From positions 1-64,000 of the forward strand of contig CAMTOJ010000012.1 of NCBI GenBank assembly GCA_947074145.1: a DNA stretch of 64,000 nt. Direction: 5' to 3'. The notes beneath the pieces were generated by a model. The model saw only the letters and a list, made by a program, of their open reading frames with translations. It was not told where the DNA came from and did not search any database. The stretch comes from an uncultured Bacteroidales bacterium (lineage in GTDB: Bacteria > Bacteroidota > Bacteroidia > Bacteroidales > JAUNSR01). Position numbers and translations under genes: made by a program. This document shows, one piece after another, positions 24,726-38,510 of the stretch. Within the stretch, counting starts at the first letter, position 1, and each line of letters begins with the position of its first letter.

Positions 24726-26447
24726 TTAATCCTTAAGTATGGTTTTAGGATTTAAACTACTTATATGACCACTCTCTGTTCCATCTTTGGGATCAATAAC
24801 GCAGTTTATTAATGTTGGTTTTCCTGAACTTATACCATCAGAAAGTGCTTTCGTTAATTCTTCAGGTGTAGTCGCATTATAAGGAGTACCACCGAAAGCT
24901 TCAATTAATTTATCATATCTTGCATCTGCCATCAGTGTAGTTGGTGAAGGATCAGGACCTCCTCCAAGATTAGTATGCCAGCCATTGTAAATACCACCAT
25001 TGTTAAAAACAACAACTGTTATAGGTAGCTTGAATCGACAGATTGTTTCTATCTCCATTCCACTAAAACCGAAAGCACTATCTCCCTCTATAGCAACTAC
25101 AGGTTTTCCTGTTGTGATAGCTGCACCTATTGCAAATCCCATTCCTATACCCATGACTCCCCAAGTTCCACAATCCAAACGATGACGTGGATAATATATG
25201 TTTACAACATTTCTTGTATCATCAAGAGTATTTGCTCCTCCATTAACAAGATAAATATCCTTATTCTGTTCAAGAACAGATTTAACTGCTTTAAGAGCAT
25301 TAAAGAAATTCATCGGCGATGTATTATTATTTAGTTTTATCGCCATTTTTGCATCATTCTTTTGTTTATCTTGATTGATACCTTCCATCCATGATGGTTG
25401 AGGTTTTATATTATATTTTGACAATCCTTTAACCATCAAATCCATACTTGAAACAATATCTCCCACTACAGGAGCTTCAATTGGCCTATTGCTGTCAATC
25501 TCTTGAGGATCAATGTCAAGTTGAATAAAACGCACGTTAGGATTCCAATGTTTTCCTTTTCCATGAGCCAACAGCCAGTTGAGTCGGGCACCTAATAATA
25601 CAACAACATCTGCATTTTCCAAAACATAGGAACGAGCAGCTGCTGCACTCTGAGGATGATCATCAGGTAATAATCCTTTAGCCATAGACATTGGAAGGAA
25701 AGGTATTCCGGTTTTTTCTATAAACTCTTTTATATCATCATCTGCTTGAGCATAAGCAGCTCCTTTACCCAATATTATTAATGGATTTTTTGCCGTAGAC
25801 AAAAGGTGTAATGCCTTATCCACAGATTCACAAGATGGTATTACTTTAGGTGATGGATCTTCAACTTTAAACAGTGTTTTTGCTGCTTCATCCTTATCCA
25901 TAATACTACTTAATAAAGCAGTCGTAAGATCAAGATAAACACCACCCGGGCGACCTGAAACCGCAGCTCGAATAGCCCTGGCTAATCCTATTGCGATATC
26001 TTCTGGTTTGTTAATTCTATAAGATGCTTTAACAAAAGGTTTGGCAATATTCATTTGATCTAACTCTTCATAATCACCCTGTTGTAAGTCGATTATAGAT
26101 CTTGTACTTGATCCGCTTATTTGAATCATTGGGAAACCATTTGTTGTTGCATTAGCAAGAGCTGTTAATCCGTTTAGAAAACCGGGAGCTGAAACTGTTA
26201 GGCATATTCCTGGTTTTTTTGTTAGAAAGCCTGTTATTGCAGCTGCATTTCCGGCAGATTGTTCATGACGAAAAGCAATATAACGAATTCCTTCTTCTTG
26301 TAAATGACGAGCAAGATCAGTTACAGGGATTCCGCATACTCCATATACTACTTCAATATCATTTTTCTTAAGTGCGTCCACAACAATGTGCATACCGTCA
26401 GTAAGGTTTTGAGCTTGTGGTTGTGTCTGAGGTTTTATATTATCCAT
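24726..26447 (-). CDS. oxc: Oxalyl-CoA decarboxylase
   Basis: ThDP-dependent enzyme converting oxalyl-CoA to formyl-CoA and CO2. The 573-residue length fits the family (Oxalobacter 568). Motifs: the ThDP-activating glutamate in FRHEQSAGNAAAITGF; PGGVYLDL; the ThDP/Mg motif GDSAFGFSGMEIETICRF ... VVFNNGGIYNG; and the C-terminal active-site lid ESGHISSLNPK. FNNGGIYNG and the lid separate it from acetolactate synthase and other homologues. It is followed by the permease (19 bp) and preceded by frc, separated by a hairpin. Together with Frc it forms the classic oxalate cycle. Confidence 0.95.
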   Translation of the reverse strand: MDNIKPQTQPQAQNLTDGMHIVVDALKKNDIEVVYGVCGIPVTDLARHLQEEGIRYIAFRHEQSAGNAAAITGFLTKKPGICLTVSAPGFLNGLTALANATTNGFPMIQISGSSTRSIIDLQQGDYEELDQMNIAKPFVKASYRINKPEDIAIGLARAIRAAVSGRPGGVYLDLTTALLSSIMDKDEAAKTLFKVEDPSPKVIPSCESVDKALHLLSTAKNPLIILGKGAAYAQADDDIKEFIEKTGIPFLPMSMAKGLLPDDHPQSAAAARSYVLENADVVVLLGARLNWLLAHGKGKHWNPNVRFIQLDIDPQEIDSNRPIEAPVVGDIVSSMDLMVKGLSKYNIKPQPSWMEGINQDKQKNDAKMAIKLNNNTSPMNFFNALKAVKSVLEQNKDIYLVNGGANTLDDTRNVVNIYYPRHRLDCGTWGVMGIGMGFAIGAAITTGKPVVAIEGDSAFGFSGMEIETICRFKLPITVVVFNNGGIYNGWHTNLGGGPDPSPTTLMADARYDKLIEAFGGTPYNATTPEELTKALSDGISSGKPTLINCVIDPKDGTESGHISSLNPKTILKD

Positions 26448-26526: not shown

Positions 26527-27798
26527 TTATTTGCAAACAATATGTCCTGTTCTGAATTTATCGATATCTGCATCGGTATATCCTATTTCTTTTAAGATCT
26601 CATTTGTATGCTCACCTAACAAAGGTGCTGACTTCACCTCAGGTGTAAAGTCTGAGAATTTAGGAGGACATCCTATGGTTACATATTTACCTCGAATCGG
26701 TTGATCAACTTCAACAAGGGTACCGCATTTATATAAAGATTCATCTTTTTCAATCTCTAACATACTTAAAACAGGACCACAAGGAACACCTTTCTTTCCT
26801 AGTTCATCAACTATTTCGTGTTTATCTTTATTTATAGTATACTCTTCAACACCTTTATAAATTTCCTGTTTTACAAGATTGCGAGCTTCAGGTGTATTAA
26901 ATTTAGGATCAGTTATCCATTCAGGTTTTCCTAATGCCTGACAAGCTTCATCAAATGCTTTGGCTTCATTTTGAAGAACGATATATACATATGCATTTGG
27001 ATCTGTTTCCCAACCTTTACATTTATAACACCATCCAAGTACCTGTCCACCTTCAACATTACCGGCACGTGGCACAGTATCTCCAAATTTTTCAGAAGGA
27101 TATTCAGGAAGATGTTTAAGGACACCTATATTCTGAAGCATTAACTGGTCACGTAGTTTTATTCGACAAAGATTCAATACAGCATCCTGCATTGATTGTT
27201 GTACAAAACATCCCTCTCCTGTCTTTTCTCTTTTGAGCAAAGCTGCAAGTAATCCGATAGCAAGATGCATACCAGTGTTACTATCTCCAAGTGCAGCTCC
27301 TGATTGAGTAGGAATATTATATTCACCATCCCACCATCCTGTTGTTGCAGCAGCGCCTCCGGCACATTGAGCAACTGGTTCAAAAGCCTTTACGCTTGCA
27401 TAAGGAGAGTCGTCGTTAAATCCCTTAATTGTCCCATAAATAACACGAGGATTCATTTTATGAACCTCTTCCCAAGAAAAGCCTAAACTATCCGCTGCAC
27501 CTGGGTGAAGATTTTCCACAAATATATCTGCACCCTTTATAAGTTTGGTAAGAATCTCTTTTCCTTCAGGTGTCTTGACATTCAATTCTATTGAGCGTTT
27601 ATTACTATTTAATTGAAGAAAATACAAACTGTCCATTCCTTCAAAATCAAGTAATTCGTTTCTTGTTGGATCTCCACTTCCAACTCTCTCGATTTTAATG
27701 ACATCTGCTCCTAACCATGCTAAAAGTTGAGTACATGACGGACCTGACTGCACTTGTGTCCAGTCTATAATTTTAATTCCTTGCAATGGTGAAACCAT
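26527..27798 (-). CDS. frc: Formyl-CoA:oxalate CoA-transferase
   Basis: Class III CoA-transferase (CaiB/BaiF) moving CoA from formyl-CoA to oxalate. Length 423, close to the 428 of Oxalobacter Frc. Visible features: [23 protein letters not shown] at the N-terminus, the catalytic aspartate in LGDSNTGMH, and the conserved [14 protein letters not shown] and [13 protein letters not shown]-like regions ([13 protein letters not shown]). The glycine-rich active-site loop, GGGGQP in YfdW/Frc as I recall, reads EGGQVL here. It is the first gene of the operon and has a strong Shine-Dalgarno sequence. Acetyl-CoA:oxalate transferase is the main alternative, but the adjacent oxc favours formyl-CoA. Confidence 0.92.
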
Positions 27799-27812: not shown

Positions 27813-28257
27813 AATCAATTTTTTAGTTTCTTAAAAATGAAAAACAAAAAAAGATCTTCTCTCTGTTCATTATAATTGAAAATCCTCTTTTATTCGATTA
27901 ATATATAATCATTCCCTATTTTAACAACTCCGGTTTAATATAGTTCAGATTGGTTTTTTTATAATTTGAGTAAAAACCATGTGTTATTTATCTATAGTTT
28001 AAAAATGGACACTTTATCCTATTACCTATAGTAATTAGTTTATATACAAGGATTTTACATTTGTTATTATTTAAAAAATAGTATAGGTCAAGAAAATGAA
28101 AACAAATTATAATAACTAAATTATATCATCTCTTCGATAAAGAATAAGATTTTCGTTTTCAGAAATATTATTCATGATTTACATATGGTAGGGTTACAAA
28201 ATATGATAAAAACATAGAGGACTAACTGATAATCGGATTATTATGAATAGGAATTAA
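27813..28257. other. Leader/promoter region of the oxalate operon
   Basis: About 445 bp without a gene. It must hold the frc promoter, but I found no clear TTTG-N19-TAnnTTTG pair. One 8-bp inverted repeat, TGGTTTTT (27951-27958) with AAAAACCA (27972-27979), is a possible operator; evidence is weak. The palindromic hexamer CTATAG occurs twice, near 27992 and 28026. Confidence 0.35.
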
Positions 28258-28307
28258 AAAAAGTCCCATTCCGGATATTCATAAGAATTTTACGGTATGG
28301 GACTTTA
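28258..28307 (-). terminator. Terminator after the XusB-like genes
   Basis: On the minus strand AAAGTCCCATACCG pairs with CGGAATGGGACTTT (13 of 14) and is followed by TTTTT. It lies about 50 bp after the DUF4374 stop and separates that operon from frc. Confidence 0.85.
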
Positions 28308-28358: not shown

Positions 28359-29651
28359 TTATTTTACGATGTTAACTGATTTCAAAAGTTCATTCTTTTC
28401 AAACGTCATTAAAGACGTAGCAACTCCTGTAGCTGCATCAATAGCATATATAGTTGGATGATCCAAGGCTGTTGTACCAGAAGAACTTGACATTGATGTT
28501 GCAGCAGCCAATGGTAGATAGAATACACCATCATATCCGTCACCCCATCCTATAGAAAATGAATAAACAGAAGGATTGGGTAATCCACTTACCCATTTAA
28601 ATGATTTGTCACTCATCTTAACAACAGCCATTAATCCTGACTCAGCCATGTTACCATAAGCACCTTTATTTGTAAAGAATTCCAATAAAAAATAATCGTC
28701 ACTTATATAGAAAGCCTTACGAAAACGATAACCATCAGATTGTGCTAGAATATCGAAATGATAATCAGTATCAAATGATTTTGTTCCTGATTTTATTCTT
28801 ATGGCTCCAACTTTGGAATCATCACTACTAGAACCTGAAAATATATAAACATTTCCATTCTCATCTGCTGCACTTTGTGTATAACGTACGCTTCTCATAG
28901 CTCCCACAGAACTGCCGATACGCTCATCTGTTATAAACTTTTGTGAATCTATATTCAGGCTATAATCGGTAAATGCTACGGCTGCCAAATCCTGATCTGA
29001 ATAATTCACAACGACAGCTACCTGATTATTTCCCATATCTACGATATTAGAAAAAGTCGGAGTTGTTTCATTGATTGCTATAGAAGGAAGATTAACTGCT
29101 ATATTATTACTTGAAATAATATCATTATTATTTCCAACGACCATAGCAAAAGGATTTGAGATTTGTGCAGCATAAGAATAATTTCCGAATATCCCCGTAT
29201 TTCCAAAAGAAGCAACAACAACCGGTTCACCTATTTCTGAAAGCTCTTGATTAGTTAATTTATATGATCTCAGACCTGCTGTAGAAGAACCTATGCCTCC
29301 GTTTTCTACAGAAGCTGCGCCTCTTGCATAAATATATCCGGTAAGAGTTGATGTATTTTCATTATAGGTCAACTGGGTAAAAGTATCCGGTACTTTTAAT
29401 GCCGATTCATCATTATATACAGTTTCGTTATATCGAGGTAATAAGATATCTGAATATACTTTCATTCCGACACCTGCAACAAGATCATTTTCTGGATCTC
29501 CGGATGTCACTATCATAAAAACATCTTTTGCCTGTTCATCAGGTTGCTGTGATTGTAATACATCTGAATCATTGTCATCACTACATGAAACTGTTATAAA
29601 ACCGACACAACATACTATTATTGAGCGCTTTACCAAAGTAAGTTTTTTCAT
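28359..29651 (-). CDS. DUF4374 lipoprotein, XusB-like (copy 2)
   Basis: A 430-residue lipoprotein, MKKLTLVKRSIIVCCVGFITVSC followed by SDDNDSD. The rest is a beta-propeller-type DUF4374 domain with repeated strands (TGYIYARGAASVENGG, NGNVYIFSGSSSDDSKVGAIRIK, MSDKSFKWVSGLPNP) and the final VYSFSIGWGDGYDGVFYLPLA. As I recall, XusB of B. thetaiotaomicron belongs to DUF4374 and holds ferric xenosiderophores at the surface for the receptor XusA. The gene directly follows a second DUF4374 gene (31-bp gap), to which it is clearly paralogous, sharing the FSGS-KxGA-RI and KSFKWISGLPN blocks. Iron-siderophore binding is inferred from family and context. Confidence 0.85.
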   Translation of the reverse strand: MKKLTLVKRSIIVCCVGFITVSCSDDNDSDVLQSQQPDEQAKDVFMIVTSGDPENDLVAGVGMKVYSDILLPRYNETVYNDESALKVPDTFTQLTYNENTSTLTGYIYARGAASVENGGIGSSTAGLRSYKLTNQELSEIGEPVVVASFGNTGIFGNYSYAAQISNPFAMVVGNNNDIISSNNIAVNLPSIAINETTPTFSNIVDMGNNQVAVVVNYSDQDLAAVAFTDYSLNIDSQKFITDERIGSSVGAMRSVRYTQSAADENGNVYIFSGSSSDDSKVGAIRIKSGTKSFDTDYHFDILAQSDGYRFRKAFYISDDYFLLEFFTNKGAYGNMAESGLMAVVKMSDKSFKWVSGLPNPSVYSFSIGWGDGYDGVFYLPLAAATSMSSSSGTTALDHPTIYAIDAATGVATSLMTFEKNELLKSVNIVK

Positions 29652-29682
29652 TCTACGTTTTTTAATAATTAATAATTGATTG

Positions 29683-30978
29683 TTATTTATAGTTCAAATA
29701 TCCTATTGTTCTTATTTCATAAACACCTTTCAATGTGATCCCTTTTGTAGCCTGAGCTGATTCTGGATCAACAATATAAATAGAAGCATCTTCACCGAAA
29801 CTAGTAATCGGCATATATAATTTCCCGTCATTAAACATCGGTACCCCTCCTGTTTCTGCGCCCGAAAGGATAAGACTCTTATTTGGAAGGCCGGAAATCC
29901 ATTTAAATGATTTCTCCTCCATATCGACGATTGCGAACTGATGCCCGGGAGTTATTGTTGAGATATTGATATCATTATATATTTCAAGACAAAACTTGTT
30001 GTCGGTCATATGCCATAAACGTCTGATAGTATATCCTCCTGTCTGTTCTTCAATATTGAAATAATAATCCTTGTCAAATTCAGATGATCCGGTAGTTATT
30101 CGAAGAGCACCACAGGCTTTTGTCGTATTTTTGTCAAATGAACCGGAAAAAACATATACAGTTCCATTATCTGTTTTTCCTAACTGAGAGAAAACTTGTG
30201 ATCTGTATTGACCTGCACTATAGCTAATTCTGTCATCTCTATATATGTTTTTTATTTTCAAATCCTTATCCATATGAGCAACCCAAACACTATCAGGAAA
30301 AGCAACATCTCCTATACTCGAACCATTACCTGTTCCTGTCTGATTGAATGAAGATTGAACCATACTTGAAAGAAATTCACCGTTACCAAGATCAACAACA
30401 CCGGCAAAGGTTATCTGCTCATCATTTGATGTTATATCTTCTGTCCAGATTGTTGTGGTTCGCTCTAATGAAACAGAATTATCATTTATATCCCAAAAAG
30501 AGAAAGTGGCGCCGTCGTTTCTTGTTCCGTCAGCCGAAACCTGACCGGCAACACTTGTCATAAGTTGGCTACCAAAGAATCCGTAATTTGAAAAACGGCT
30601 CGATATCTTGAATTCCCCCAATTTTTCAAGAGAAGAATCCTTTTTATATCGAAAACCATATCCTATACCGGCAAATTGTTGTTGGTAGACCATTCCTATT
30701 GCTACATCTTCTTTGAATATCCAAGTATATTCGGTTTGTGGGAGTTCCATTATATTGGAACTTATATTAAGATCACCTTCCTCCAGGGATTCTGCCTGCA
30801 TTATATATTCGGTTCCACTACTTGCTTTTACTGCAATAAAATATGGACCGGTTCCACTTTGAAGAACATCTCCATTCGATATATTCTCATCTTTTTCACA
30901 CGAAGAAAATAATGAGACAGAGCCTATCAGAAAACTGAATCTGAATAATCTCTTAAATAATAAACTCTTTTGATTCAT
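29683..30978 (-). CDS. DUF4374 lipoprotein, XusB-like (copy 1)
   Basis: A 431-residue lipoprotein, MNQKSLLFKRLFRFSFLIGSVSLFSSC with the mature end EKDENISNGD. DUF4374 features: GTVYVFSGSFDKNTTKACGALRI, FDKDYYFNIEEQTGGYTIRRLW, EEKSFKWISGLPNKS and a final PMFNDGKLYMPI strand. It starts ten bp after the TonB receptor stop, so it is the primary receptor partner. Compared with copy 2 the framework is conserved but loops differ, as expected if the two bind different ligands or form a relay. Substrate unknown. Confidence 0.86.
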   Translation of the reverse strand: MNQKSLLFKRLFRFSFLIGSVSLFSSCEKDENISNGDVLQSGTGPYFIAVKASSGTEYIMQAESLEEGDLNISSNIMELPQTEYTWIFKEDVAIGMVYQQQFAGIGYGFRYKKDSSLEKLGEFKISSRFSNYGFFGSQLMTSVAGQVSADGTRNDGATFSFWDINDNSVSLERTTTIWTEDITSNDEQITFAGVVDLGNGEFLSSMVQSSFNQTGTGNGSSIGDVAFPDSVWVAHMDKDLKIKNIYRDDRISYSAGQYRSQVFSQLGKTDNGTVYVFSGSFDKNTTKACGALRITTGSSEFDKDYYFNIEEQTGGYTIRRLWHMTDNKFCLEIYNDINISTITPGHQFAIVDMEEKSFKWISGLPNKSLILSGAETGGVPMFNDGKLYMPITSFGEDASIYIVDPESAQATKGITLKGVYEIRTIGYLNYK

Positions 30979-30988
30979 TTTTTTATAA

Positions 30989-33361
30989 TTAGTTGTTAAG
31001 TTGTTTATGAAAGAAATAGCGAAATTTTAGAGAGAAATTCCGCCCCGGTTTCTGTAAACTATAATTATCATATAAAAGAGCATCTGTTATATTACCTGCT
31101 TGCACAGCAATGTTAAACCTCCCATTATTTATCGAATAAGTCATATTTATATCATGTGACATCTGTCTTGGAATATAAAGTTTAGCTCCTTCGCCTGCCC
31201 ATGAACGAAAAAATTTCTCTGTAAAAAGTAAATTATATCCCAATGTCAGGTTATTTTTCTTGCCGAATAATCTATAGAAAGTATAAGAGGCATCTGCATT
31301 TCCAAACAAGTAGGGAAGATTTGGAACACGATTATTATAAGTTACGGATTCAGAACCAATAGCAGTATATAATTCTTTATCCCTCATATCATGATAAGAA
31401 AAATTGGATCCGACCACTAAAATATTTTTATAGTAATATCTCAATGTTATATCCGTACCTAATCCTAAAACTTTTCCGTGATTCGCGCTTGTAGCTATAC
31501 CTTTTGACCCAATAGTTCTGATTATATAATCAGTAACATATCTGGAAAATGCTCCAAAATCGATAGTAAAAGAATGTTTCTTATCAAAATAATGAGAGTA
31601 AGAAAGATTCATATTAAAATTGTTGCTGTTTTCAGGTCTTATATTTGCTGCGCCGTTTTCATAATCACCGTCACCGAAAAGTTCTGTATCTGTCGGTAAT
31701 CTATATGTCTTTTCATAAGAAATCTTATATTGAAGGTCTGAAGTGAAGAAATATGTTCCGGCCACTCCATAACCGAAAACATCACTATTTCGGGTTTGTT
31801 CTTCATACTGATCTCTTCCGGTTATTGCAACGTTAACAGGACCACAAACATTAGTGTAATAATATTTACCGAATAATGATGCATTCCATTTATCACTGTG
31901 TACATATTTATATGATAAACCAAGTATATTCTTTTCATTCTTTCTTCTCATAAAGGTTGCAGCACTACTCTGCATTGAATTAGCAGCTGAATTCGTGGTC
32001 TTACGCACATAATGGCTATACATATTATTCAACGAGAAAAAATGATTCTCTCCTATTCGATATTTTAGATTAGCAACACTATAACCGGTTTTCCCATGAA
32101 ATTCGGCAAGAGTAGCAACCCCTTCTCCTTGAGTATCCTTGTCTATATATTCACCACTCCAGTTATATTCACGCGCTACTGTATCAACGTTATTTGTAGA
32201 GACATCGGAATATCTCACACTCAGATCCACATCCAGATTTTTTATAATGAAATTTTTCTTTTCGTAATTCAAAGAGGGTGTTATTGCATTTGAAGTACGA
32301 TATTTACCACCGAAAACGATAGTCATCAGATTTGCATTCTGTATTTGTGCATATTCGCGACTATAATTTAAGCCTACGATAAAACGGTTAGCCCACCTCT
32401 TATTTTCTACTCCTGTCTGAAATATCACAGCCTCATTATGATATTTATCATGAAAGCGGCGAAACCAATCCTCTTGTTGTGACACACTGCTGGTCATAAG
32501 ATCGGTATATTTGGTTTTTATCTTATAATCATTATCTGAATAGTTTTGATATGCATTAAGCTGGAGAATAAAACCTTTTTTTGATGTATATCCGAAGTTC
32601 AAATTTGATTTATGTGTATTAAATGAACCATAAGAATATGAAGCATCAAGATATGTATTGGATGTTTTAGATGTCACTATATTTATAGCTCCACCTAATG
32701 CATCACCACCAAACTCGACCGGAACTACTCCTTTATAGATTTCGATCCTTTCCGCTATATTGACAGGAATATTATTTAATTTAAAAGATGAACCCGACCC
32801 TTCCATCGGTACTCCATCTATAAAGATTTTAATATGTCTTCCTGTAAAACCATTAAGATTTATCTGAGTACCAGAACCAAGTCCCCCTTCTTCTCTTAAT
32901 CTTACTCCTGATACTGTATTAAGGATATGAGCAAGATCAAGAGATGTATTACTTAATTTTTTTGTATCAATTGCGACGGCATTATAAGCTGAGTTGTTAA
33001 TAACATCAACAGCCTTTCCCAATATCTCGACTTCTTCTATCTCCTCAATTTTTGGGATTAATGTTAAATTCATTTTTATGCGTTCACCGTCTAATAATGT
33101 CAAATCTTTTTCGACCGTTTCATACCCCAACGCAGAAACAACAAGAGTATAATGTCCCTGTTTAGCTACTATGTGATAAAGCCCTTCTGAATTGCTGGCA
33201 CTCCCGAATCCTGTATTTTTAAGATATACGGTAGCGAACTCGACAATTCCATTTTCTATTGAAAATATCCTACCTGAAATGACAGCTTCTTTTTTATGGG
33301 CAAAAGCAGATAATGAATTCACCAAAACAACCAAAACCAACACTAAACTCCTAAATTTCAT
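30989..33361 (-). CDS. TonB-dependent outer-membrane receptor, XusA-like
   Basis: A 790-residue receptor. Signal peptide MKFRSLVLVLVVLVNSLSAFAH; carboxypeptidase-regulatory-like domain at about 25-105 (GRIFSIENGIVEFATVYLKNTGFGSASNSEGLYHI); plug domain at about 110-235 (LDLAHILNTVSGVRLREEGG ... FIDGVPMEGSG ... IEIYKGVVPVEFGGDALGGAINIVT); then a 22-strand-type barrel ending LKFRYFFHKQLNN. This is a FecA/CirA-like metal-chelate receptor rather than a SusC porin, which is about 1000 residues. It is followed by two DUF4374 lipoproteins, as in the xus locus, but no PepSY membrane reductase (XusC) follows. Ferric siderophore is the best guess. Confidence 0.9.
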   Translation of the reverse strand: MKFRSLVLVLVVLVNSLSAFAHKKEAVISGRIFSIENGIVEFATVYLKNTGFGSASNSEGLYHIVAKQGHYTLVVSALGYETVEKDLTLLDGERIKMNLTLIPKIEEIEEVEILGKAVDVINNSAYNAVAIDTKKLSNTSLDLAHILNTVSGVRLREEGGLGSGTQINLNGFTGRHIKIFIDGVPMEGSGSSFKLNNIPVNIAERIEIYKGVVPVEFGGDALGGAINIVTSKTSNTYLDASYSYGSFNTHKSNLNFGYTSKKGFILQLNAYQNYSDNDYKIKTKYTDLMTSSVSQQEDWFRRFHDKYHNEAVIFQTGVENKRWANRFIVGLNYSREYAQIQNANLMTIVFGGKYRTSNAITPSLNYEKKNFIIKNLDVDLSVRYSDVSTNNVDTVAREYNWSGEYIDKDTQGEGVATLAEFHGKTGYSVANLKYRIGENHFFSLNNMYSHYVRKTTNSAANSMQSSAATFMRRKNEKNILGLSYKYVHSDKWNASLFGKYYYTNVCGPVNVAITGRDQYEEQTRNSDVFGYGVAGTYFFTSDLQYKISYEKTYRLPTDTELFGDGDYENGAANIRPENSNNFNMNLSYSHYFDKKHSFTIDFGAFSRYVTDYIIRTIGSKGIATSANHGKVLGLGTDITLRYYYKNILVVGSNFSYHDMRDKELYTAIGSESVTYNNRVPNLPYLFGNADASYTFYRLFGKKNNLTLGYNLLFTEKFFRSWAGEGAKLYIPRQMSHDINMTYSINNGRFNIAVQAGNITDALLYDNYSLQKPGRNFSLKFRYFFHKQLNN

Positions 33362-33415: not shown

Positions 33416-33446
33416 CAAAAGTATACTCTTTTAGAAACCAAACAAA
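33416..33446 (-). promoter_or_regulatory. Bacteroidetes-type promoter of the TonB receptor operon
   Basis: On the minus strand TTTG (33446-33443), 19 bases, then TACTTTTG (33423-33416), an exact fit to the TTTG-N19-21-TAnnTTTG sigma consensus. Expected transcription start is about 45-50 bp upstream of the receptor ATG. Confidence 0.75.
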
Positions 33447-37631: not shown

Positions 37632-38510
37632 ATGAAAAAAGAACCTATAAATAACAACATTGCCGACAATATCTCTTCTATTGCCGAAATCAGAATACTA
37701 AGCGCAAAAAAGAATCCAGATCATTACCCGAAAGGTTATCATCGCCACAATTGCTATCAATTAGTAATAGTAGAAAAAGGTTATCTTGAAATAATGGTAA
37801 ACTGTTTATTACAAAGGATTGAAAAAAACACCATCGTAATGCTTGGAAATGATTTACCGCATGGTTCGATAGTTTATTCTAATGATATAAAAGTAACTTT
37901 AATCCATATTCCTTATTCTTCGGTCTCATGGTGCGCATCTATTCCTGATCTTGAATTAAAGTTTAGATTTATAAAGGAAAGTAGTGCAGGTTATCTTTTC
38001 ACATCTGAAAAATCGACAAAAAAGATTATTGGTTTGAGTAAAAAAATGCTTAAAAGTGAAGGTTTCGGAAAAGTTTCTTTTCTATTTGAACTACTTGATA
38101 TCTTAAGTAATGAATCTGATATTAAAAAGATAATATATGATACTTCTTCTGATATAGCAATTACAAATTTGAAACATCAAAGCCCTATTGATAGAACATT
38201 TGATTATATATACAAACACTATACCGATACATTTACACTCGATGAAATAGCATCATATGCCGGACAAAACCCGACAGCTTTATGTCGGGCGTTCAAAAAA
38301 CGTTCCGGCTTTGCAATATTCAGTTTTATAAATCGTATTCGAATAGAACAAGCTTGTCGCTTACTTCTCGATTATGAACTGTCTATCTCTCAAATTGCGT
38401 TTGTGGTGGGGTATAACTCTTTTTCCCATTTCAGCACTCAGTTTCAACGTATAGTTAATCTTTCACCTACTGAATATCGTCAGAAAAAAATGATTAGGAA
38501 AATCAATTAA
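37632..38510 (+). CDS. AraC-family transcriptional regulator with cupin domain
   Basis: A 292-residue regulator: N-terminal cupin sensor (PKGYHRHNCYQLVIVEKGYLEIMVN, residues 35-60) and C-terminal AraC double helix-turn-helix (FTLDEIASYAGQNPTALCRAFKKRSG ... LSISQIAFVVGYNSFSHFSTQFQRIVNLSPTEYRQ). The sensor pattern is that of sugar-responsive regulators. It is divergent from the membrane ferredoxin gene (91-bp gap) and overlaps tail to tail by eight bases with the next AraC gene. Confidence 0.9.
   Translation: MKKEPINNNIADNISSIAEIRILSAKKNPDHYPKGYHRHNCYQLVIVEKGYLEIMVNCLLQRIEKNTIVMLGNDLPHGSIVYSNDIKVTLIHIPYSSVSWCASIPDLELKFRFIKESSAGYLFTSEKSTKKIIGLSKKMLKSEGFGKVSFLFELLDILSNESDIKKIIYDTSSDIAITNLKHQSPIDRTFDYIYKHYTDTFTLDEIASYAGQNPTALCRAFKKRSGFAIFSFINRIRIEQACRLLLDYELSISQIAFVVGYNSFSHFSTQFQRIVNLSPTEYRQKKMIRKIN

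Follow-up and report, generated by a model that had tools for sequence, protein, structure and literature searches.

The window analysed here is a stretch of 64,000 nucleotides from one contig of an uncultured Bacteroidales bacterium. ORF and profile searches locate three minus-strand reading frames at window positions 28359-33361, a TonB-dependent transporter and then two DUF4374 lipoproteins, separated by 10 and 31 bp. As an earlier note on this DNA had described, the two lipoproteins are paralogs (29% identity, E 3e-33, pairwise alignment). In the following, the DUF4374 gene beside xusA is called B1 and the far one B2; a genome search finds these two to be the sole DUF4374 genes of the window's genome. 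The operon and its flanking signals are the following:

33416..33446, minus strand: Bacteroidetes-type promoter-like motif upstream of xusA (TTTG, spacer, TANNTTTG; consensus match only)
30989..33361, minus strand: xusA-like transporter, 790 aa, with CarbopepD_reg-like N-terminus, Plug and TonB barrel (Pfam)
29683..30978, minus strand: B1, XusB-like DUF4374 lipoprotein adjoining xusA, 431 aa (DUF4374 E 4.4e-62)
28359..29651, minus strand: B2, divergent DUF4374 lipoprotein distal to xusA, 430 aa (DUF4374 E 3.2e-25)
28260..28306, minus strand: rho-independent terminator of the xus operon, a stem-loop with U-run at 28253-28259 (-20.3 kcal/mol, z -4.7)

The transporter belongs to the XusA family. 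It aligns over 777 residues (8-784) with B. theta XusA from the cryo-EM structure of the XusAB complex (PDB 9gbc_A, E 6e-209), and its closest relatives are this protein and the MxcH model. The label "FecA-type" given to it earlier is loose; the description of a XusA/XusB-like locus holds for the transporter as well as for B1, which folds as XusB (see below). With B. theta XusABC (BT_2065, BT_2064, BT_2063) the system shares a full-length XusA, a DUF4374 propeller lipoprotein directly downstream of xusA, and a XusC ortholog somewhere in the genome. It differs in having two DUF4374 proteins instead of one, and in the location of XusC outside the operon.

Both DUF4374 proteins carry lipoprotein signal peptides, and direct reading of their sequences displays the lipid cysteine followed by an acidic stretch (CEKDEN in B1, CSDDND in B2). 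Such an acidic stretch after the lipid cysteine is a surface-export signal. The same rule is given in the published work on XusB (PMC13142918), and this feature of XusABC is present in B1 and B2.

Conservation of the B1-B2 pair

A DUF4374 match is found in 30 of 393 genomes of the order, and two such genes occur only in the window's genome and in its congener G003. For a wider sample, genome contigs were scanned with a XusA alignment, and the best 80 of 571 confirmed stretches were named. Tandem DUF4374 genes are present in four other loci among these best 80 of 571; identities are given for the window's B1 against the first gene and its B2 against the second:

L082 (G003, uncultured Bacteroidales MAG, sister species): 76% and 78%
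L083 (Prevotella sp. BIN10): 59% and 57%
L084 (Prevotellaceae Marseille-P2826): 59% and 51%
L098 (uncultured Dysgonomonas): 46% and 46%

Compared with each other across the tandem loci, B1 and B2 are 26-31% identical. A tree built from 106 DUF4374 proteins places all five B1 in a single clade (SH-aLRT 97) and all five B2 in a second (100); the two clades mirror each other in their internal branching and are not sisters. This is a quick tree, in which the long B2 stem leaves the exact position of B2 unsure. A recent tandem duplication is ruled out, as the split between B1 and B2 orthologs precedes the split of the species. Since the separate clades mirror each other over five genomes, xusA, B1 and B2 travel as a unit and represent a conserved Xus sub-type. 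The expression "duplicated XusB", used in the earlier note, is right in naming a paralogous pair and misleading in that the paralogs are old and separately conserved.

A pattern scan upstream of xusA in the five loci found no Fur-like site consistently above shuffles; one site in L084 scores 14/19, but lies within the coding start. A LysR-type neighbour was considered as a conserved regulator and dismissed, since a search of four congeners at E <= 1e-20 did not retrieve it. In Dysgonomonas an AraC-type regulator (L098 5723-6601) is divergent from xusA; it is 31% identical over its full length to a gene at window 37632-38510, which is 4 kb away from xusA.

Fold and ligand-contact positions of B1 and B2

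The earlier note had proposed structure prediction for both DUF4374 proteins. Sequence search relates B1 to solved XusB proteins in the PDB (1.2e-32), with matches to 9gar and 8gex and not to 9hqe. Its AF2 model has a pLDDT of 77, and the top 20 Foldseek matches in the PDB are all XusB (TM up to 0.84). Profile, PDB sequence and predicted fold agree on a DUF4374 seven-bladed propeller, and as modelled B1 is a XusB in fold and family. B2 matches XusB at 2.3e-15 in the sequence search. Its AF2 model, built before B2 orthologs had been identified, is of low confidence (pLDDT 56) and too poor for judging the pocket; its 20 best PDB matches are nevertheless all XusB. Judged by profile and PDB sequence, B2 is a lipoprotein of the DUF4374/XusB family, with its fold taken from the weak model only.

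B. theta XusB contacts ferric enterobactin by hook residues N120/S121, by R167/S168 in loop L2, R255 in L3, and Y411/Q413 in L4 (Silale et al. 2026, PMC13142918). B. viscericola XusB likewise binds ferric enterobactin, and the hookless XusB of B. fragilis takes ferrichrome, not ferric enterobactin (PMC13142918). Alignment displays that the contact positions common to the B. theta and B. viscericola binders are kept in 5/5 B1 orthologs, namely R259/S260 (the Arg-Ser pair of L2), Y98/Q100 (Tyr-x-Gln of L4), and the hook-tip serine within a Gly-Ser-Ser tip. The hook of B1 is present but short, with 26 residues between its anchors versus about 50 in long XusBs, a difference of about 24. The L3 arginine of B. 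theta XusB is absent from B1, and also from canonical relatives such as L042. Given these shared contact positions, B1 may be read as catecholate-type, and we consider it slightly more likely than not that it binds a catecholate.

Among the solved proteins, Barnesiella viscericola XusB (9gar) shares the blade order of B1 (Foldseek TM 0.71-0.75) and is a ferric enterobactin binder with the L2 and L4 positions as in B1, but it has a longer hook, acts as single binder, and is only 22% identical to B1 in the fold alignment. Bacteroides fragilis XusB of the ferrichrome type (9hqe/9hqk) is the best fold match of B1 by E-value (TM 0.69-0.84). B. theta XusB differs from B1 in blade order as well: it (9gbc_B, 8gex) is circularly permuted relative to other DUF4374 proteins, such that residues 45-146 of a canonical protein (L042 7229-8626) match its residues 354-460, and residues 151-461 match 32-348. 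None of the 106 other DUF4374 proteins has the permuted order. This permutation would explain the "unique hook position" of the published work; the word permutation is not used in the main text of PMC13142918.

Neither the hook nor the L4 glutamine is present in B2, which therefore does not fit the catecholate type of XusB. In 5/5 orthologs only 9 residues remain between the hook anchors, compared with 26 in B1, and an arginine (Y-x-R) stands at the site of Q413. This arginine is not among the residues listed there for other DUF4374 groups. All five B2 retain Arg-Ser in L2 and the tyrosine in L4, and they have strongly conserved loop residues of their own (GYIYxRGA, RSVRY). The lost hook together with the exchange of Gln for Arg suggests a different specificity of B2, and the chances that its ligand differs from that of B1 appear about even. 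In the same way, as B1 and B2 differ at ligand-contact positions, the earlier proposal that two binders widen the ligand range is a fair reading. In being a short hookless propeller B2 resembles B. fragilis XusB. A ferrichrome-type assignment is, however, not supported: both B1 and B2 fall outside the B. fragilis-like clade of the tree, neither groups with the ferrichrome-type relatives L059-L061, and these lack the Arg-Ser pair that B1 and B2 keep.

XusC outside the operon

There is no PepSY gene in the neighbourhood of the xus locus, so that the same-operon XusC of XusABC is missing in the window's genome. Among the 80 related loci (best 80 of 571), about 20 likewise lack a PepSY gene nearby; hence, an operon-linked XusC is not a strict criterion of such systems. 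The window's genome has two PepSY_TM genes. For one of them, on contig C56 (6298-7596), the only match at E <= 1e-10 lies directly beside DUF4374 in 12/12 canonical Xus genomes, which identifies it as the XusC ortholog and rules out a loss of XusC. The earlier statement "no XusC" is therefore true of the locus and does not extend to the genome.

In G003 the trio is flanked on one side by a tRNA-Met gene, with an OmpA-like gene beyond, and on the other by a PepSY gene, which is convergent with B2 and 58.6% identical to the one on C56. The OmpA-like gene, tRNA-Met, PepSY and next genes are all present on C56, and the trio is absent. By this comparison, trio and XusC were separated in the lineage of the window's genome, or joined in that of G003. 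The tRNA-Met (CAT) gene (L018 3265-3339 / L019 5905-5979) marks a site with the trio in G003 and without it in the window's genome, and is a possible point of integration or recombination.

The other tandem loci vary in this respect. XusC is likewise alone on another contig in the Dysgonomonas genome, and Marseille-P2826 has, about 1.16 Mb from the trio, another Xus locus that is complete and includes XusC. The only PepSY gene found in BIN10 is a more distant one, beside a DUF4374 gene of its own. A short nitroreductase-family protein with an apparent signal peptide is encoded directly after B2 in L083 (11703-12305) and L084 (11874-12518), and could be a stand-in reductase for XusC. Canonical XusC has about 381 aa; in three of the genomes it is longer (432-458 aa), with a charged low-complexity insertion in the window's genome and G003:

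L019 6298-7596: window's genome
L017 16123-17499: G003
L170 1483-2820: Dysgonomonas

Proposed function and the oxalate neighbourhood

Based on this dataset, ferric-chelate uptake of some kind is very probable for the operon. More specifically, we propose that the three genes probably serve to capture and import ferric siderophores of other organisms, with B1 as catecholate lid and B2 as second binder. XusA would be the TonB-driven pore. By analogy with XusAB, B1 would be the lid that caps it and presents a catecholate-type ferric siderophore, and B2, as a surface-exposed hookless propeller, would most likely supply this XusA with ferric chelates of another class. The chelate would be reduced in the periplasm by the XusC-type PepSY membrane protein acting in trans from contig C56, and expression would presumably follow iron. 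Still more narrowly, and tentatively, the contact residues may indicate a Xus sub-type with two dedicated lids, in which B1 is catecholate-type and the hookless, Arg-bearing B2 takes a chelate class new for DUF4374.

The operon next to the locus encodes frc, oxc, a YfdV-type transporter and pyruvate:ferredoxin oxidoreductase:

26527-27798, same strand as the xus operon: frc
24726-26447: oxc

The earlier note had seen this adjacency, which is real, and had considered a link to oxalate, which does not hold up. A locus that imports ferric oxalate, or is regulated together with oxalate breakdown, would account for two operons on one strand with only 560 bp between frc and the xus operon. The xus terminator, however, lies within this gap at a distance of about 460 bp from frc, and xusA is preceded by a promoter-like motif of its own. 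In G003 the trio is on contig C1 and the oxalate operon (75-94% identity) on contig C68, with unrelated genes upstream of frc; between the two genomes frc shares 94% identity, and its neighbours in the operon 75-86%. The trio likewise lacks flanking oxalate genes in L083, L084 and L098, so that frc/oxc adjacency occurs in 0/4 other tandem-B loci and the association is not conserved. Oxalyl-CoA decarboxylase is found in 7 of 393 genomes, near a DUF4374 gene only in the window's genome. One further genome (G029) carries both systems on different contigs, and the genome survey detected no DUF4374 in the oxalate-positive G001, G142, G237 and G377. A literature search found no paper joining xenosiderophores and oxalate. 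Since trio and oxalate genes are apart elsewhere, their adjacency is, as far as tested, particular to the window's genome; it looks incidental to the xus operon, and a role in ferric oxalate import or joint regulation seems very improbable. The neighbourhood of a gene in a single genome is a poor guide to function, and the oxalate operon may serve as a warning in this regard.

Two further alternatives concern the substrate and B2. Propeller-lidded TonB transporters also serve vitamin B12, as in BtuBG, and the fold search also retrieves the B12 lipoprotein BT2095, with lower similarity (TM about 0.5-0.65); a substrate other than a ferric siderophore, e.g. cobalamin or a haem-type molecule, is thus conceivable. 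The components of BtuBG belong to other families, though, and match in fold only weakly; in sequence as in fold XusA and XusB are much nearer, and the genome has an ortholog of the XusC-type reductase, which makes such a chelate improbable. On the other hand, B2 may be an accessory protein, one that either supports the XusA-B1 lid structurally or, released in vesicles, serves as a reservoir keeping chelates away from competitors. Its lost hook and L4 Gln and its co-inheritance with B1 in all five genomes would fit this, and B. theta is known to shed excess XusB in vesicles (PMC13142918). Yet the L2 Arg-Ser pair, the L4 tyrosine and the conserved loop residues of its own are what would be expected of a working ligand site, and we regard an accessory role as rather unlikely. 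We favour siderophore capture by B1 and B2 for a common XusA.

In the xus locus a known system occurs in a conserved variant with two binders. To our knowledge, the structurally studied Xus systems have a single surface binder. The two-binder variant is unmentioned in PMC13142918, and a prior description lies within what an open-access search cannot exclude. Xus systems take iron-loaded siderophores from competitors and influence competition in the gut. With its two binders, the version described here would allow a natural test of the number of chelate classes that one transporter accepts, and of what XusB needs for handing its ligand to XusA.
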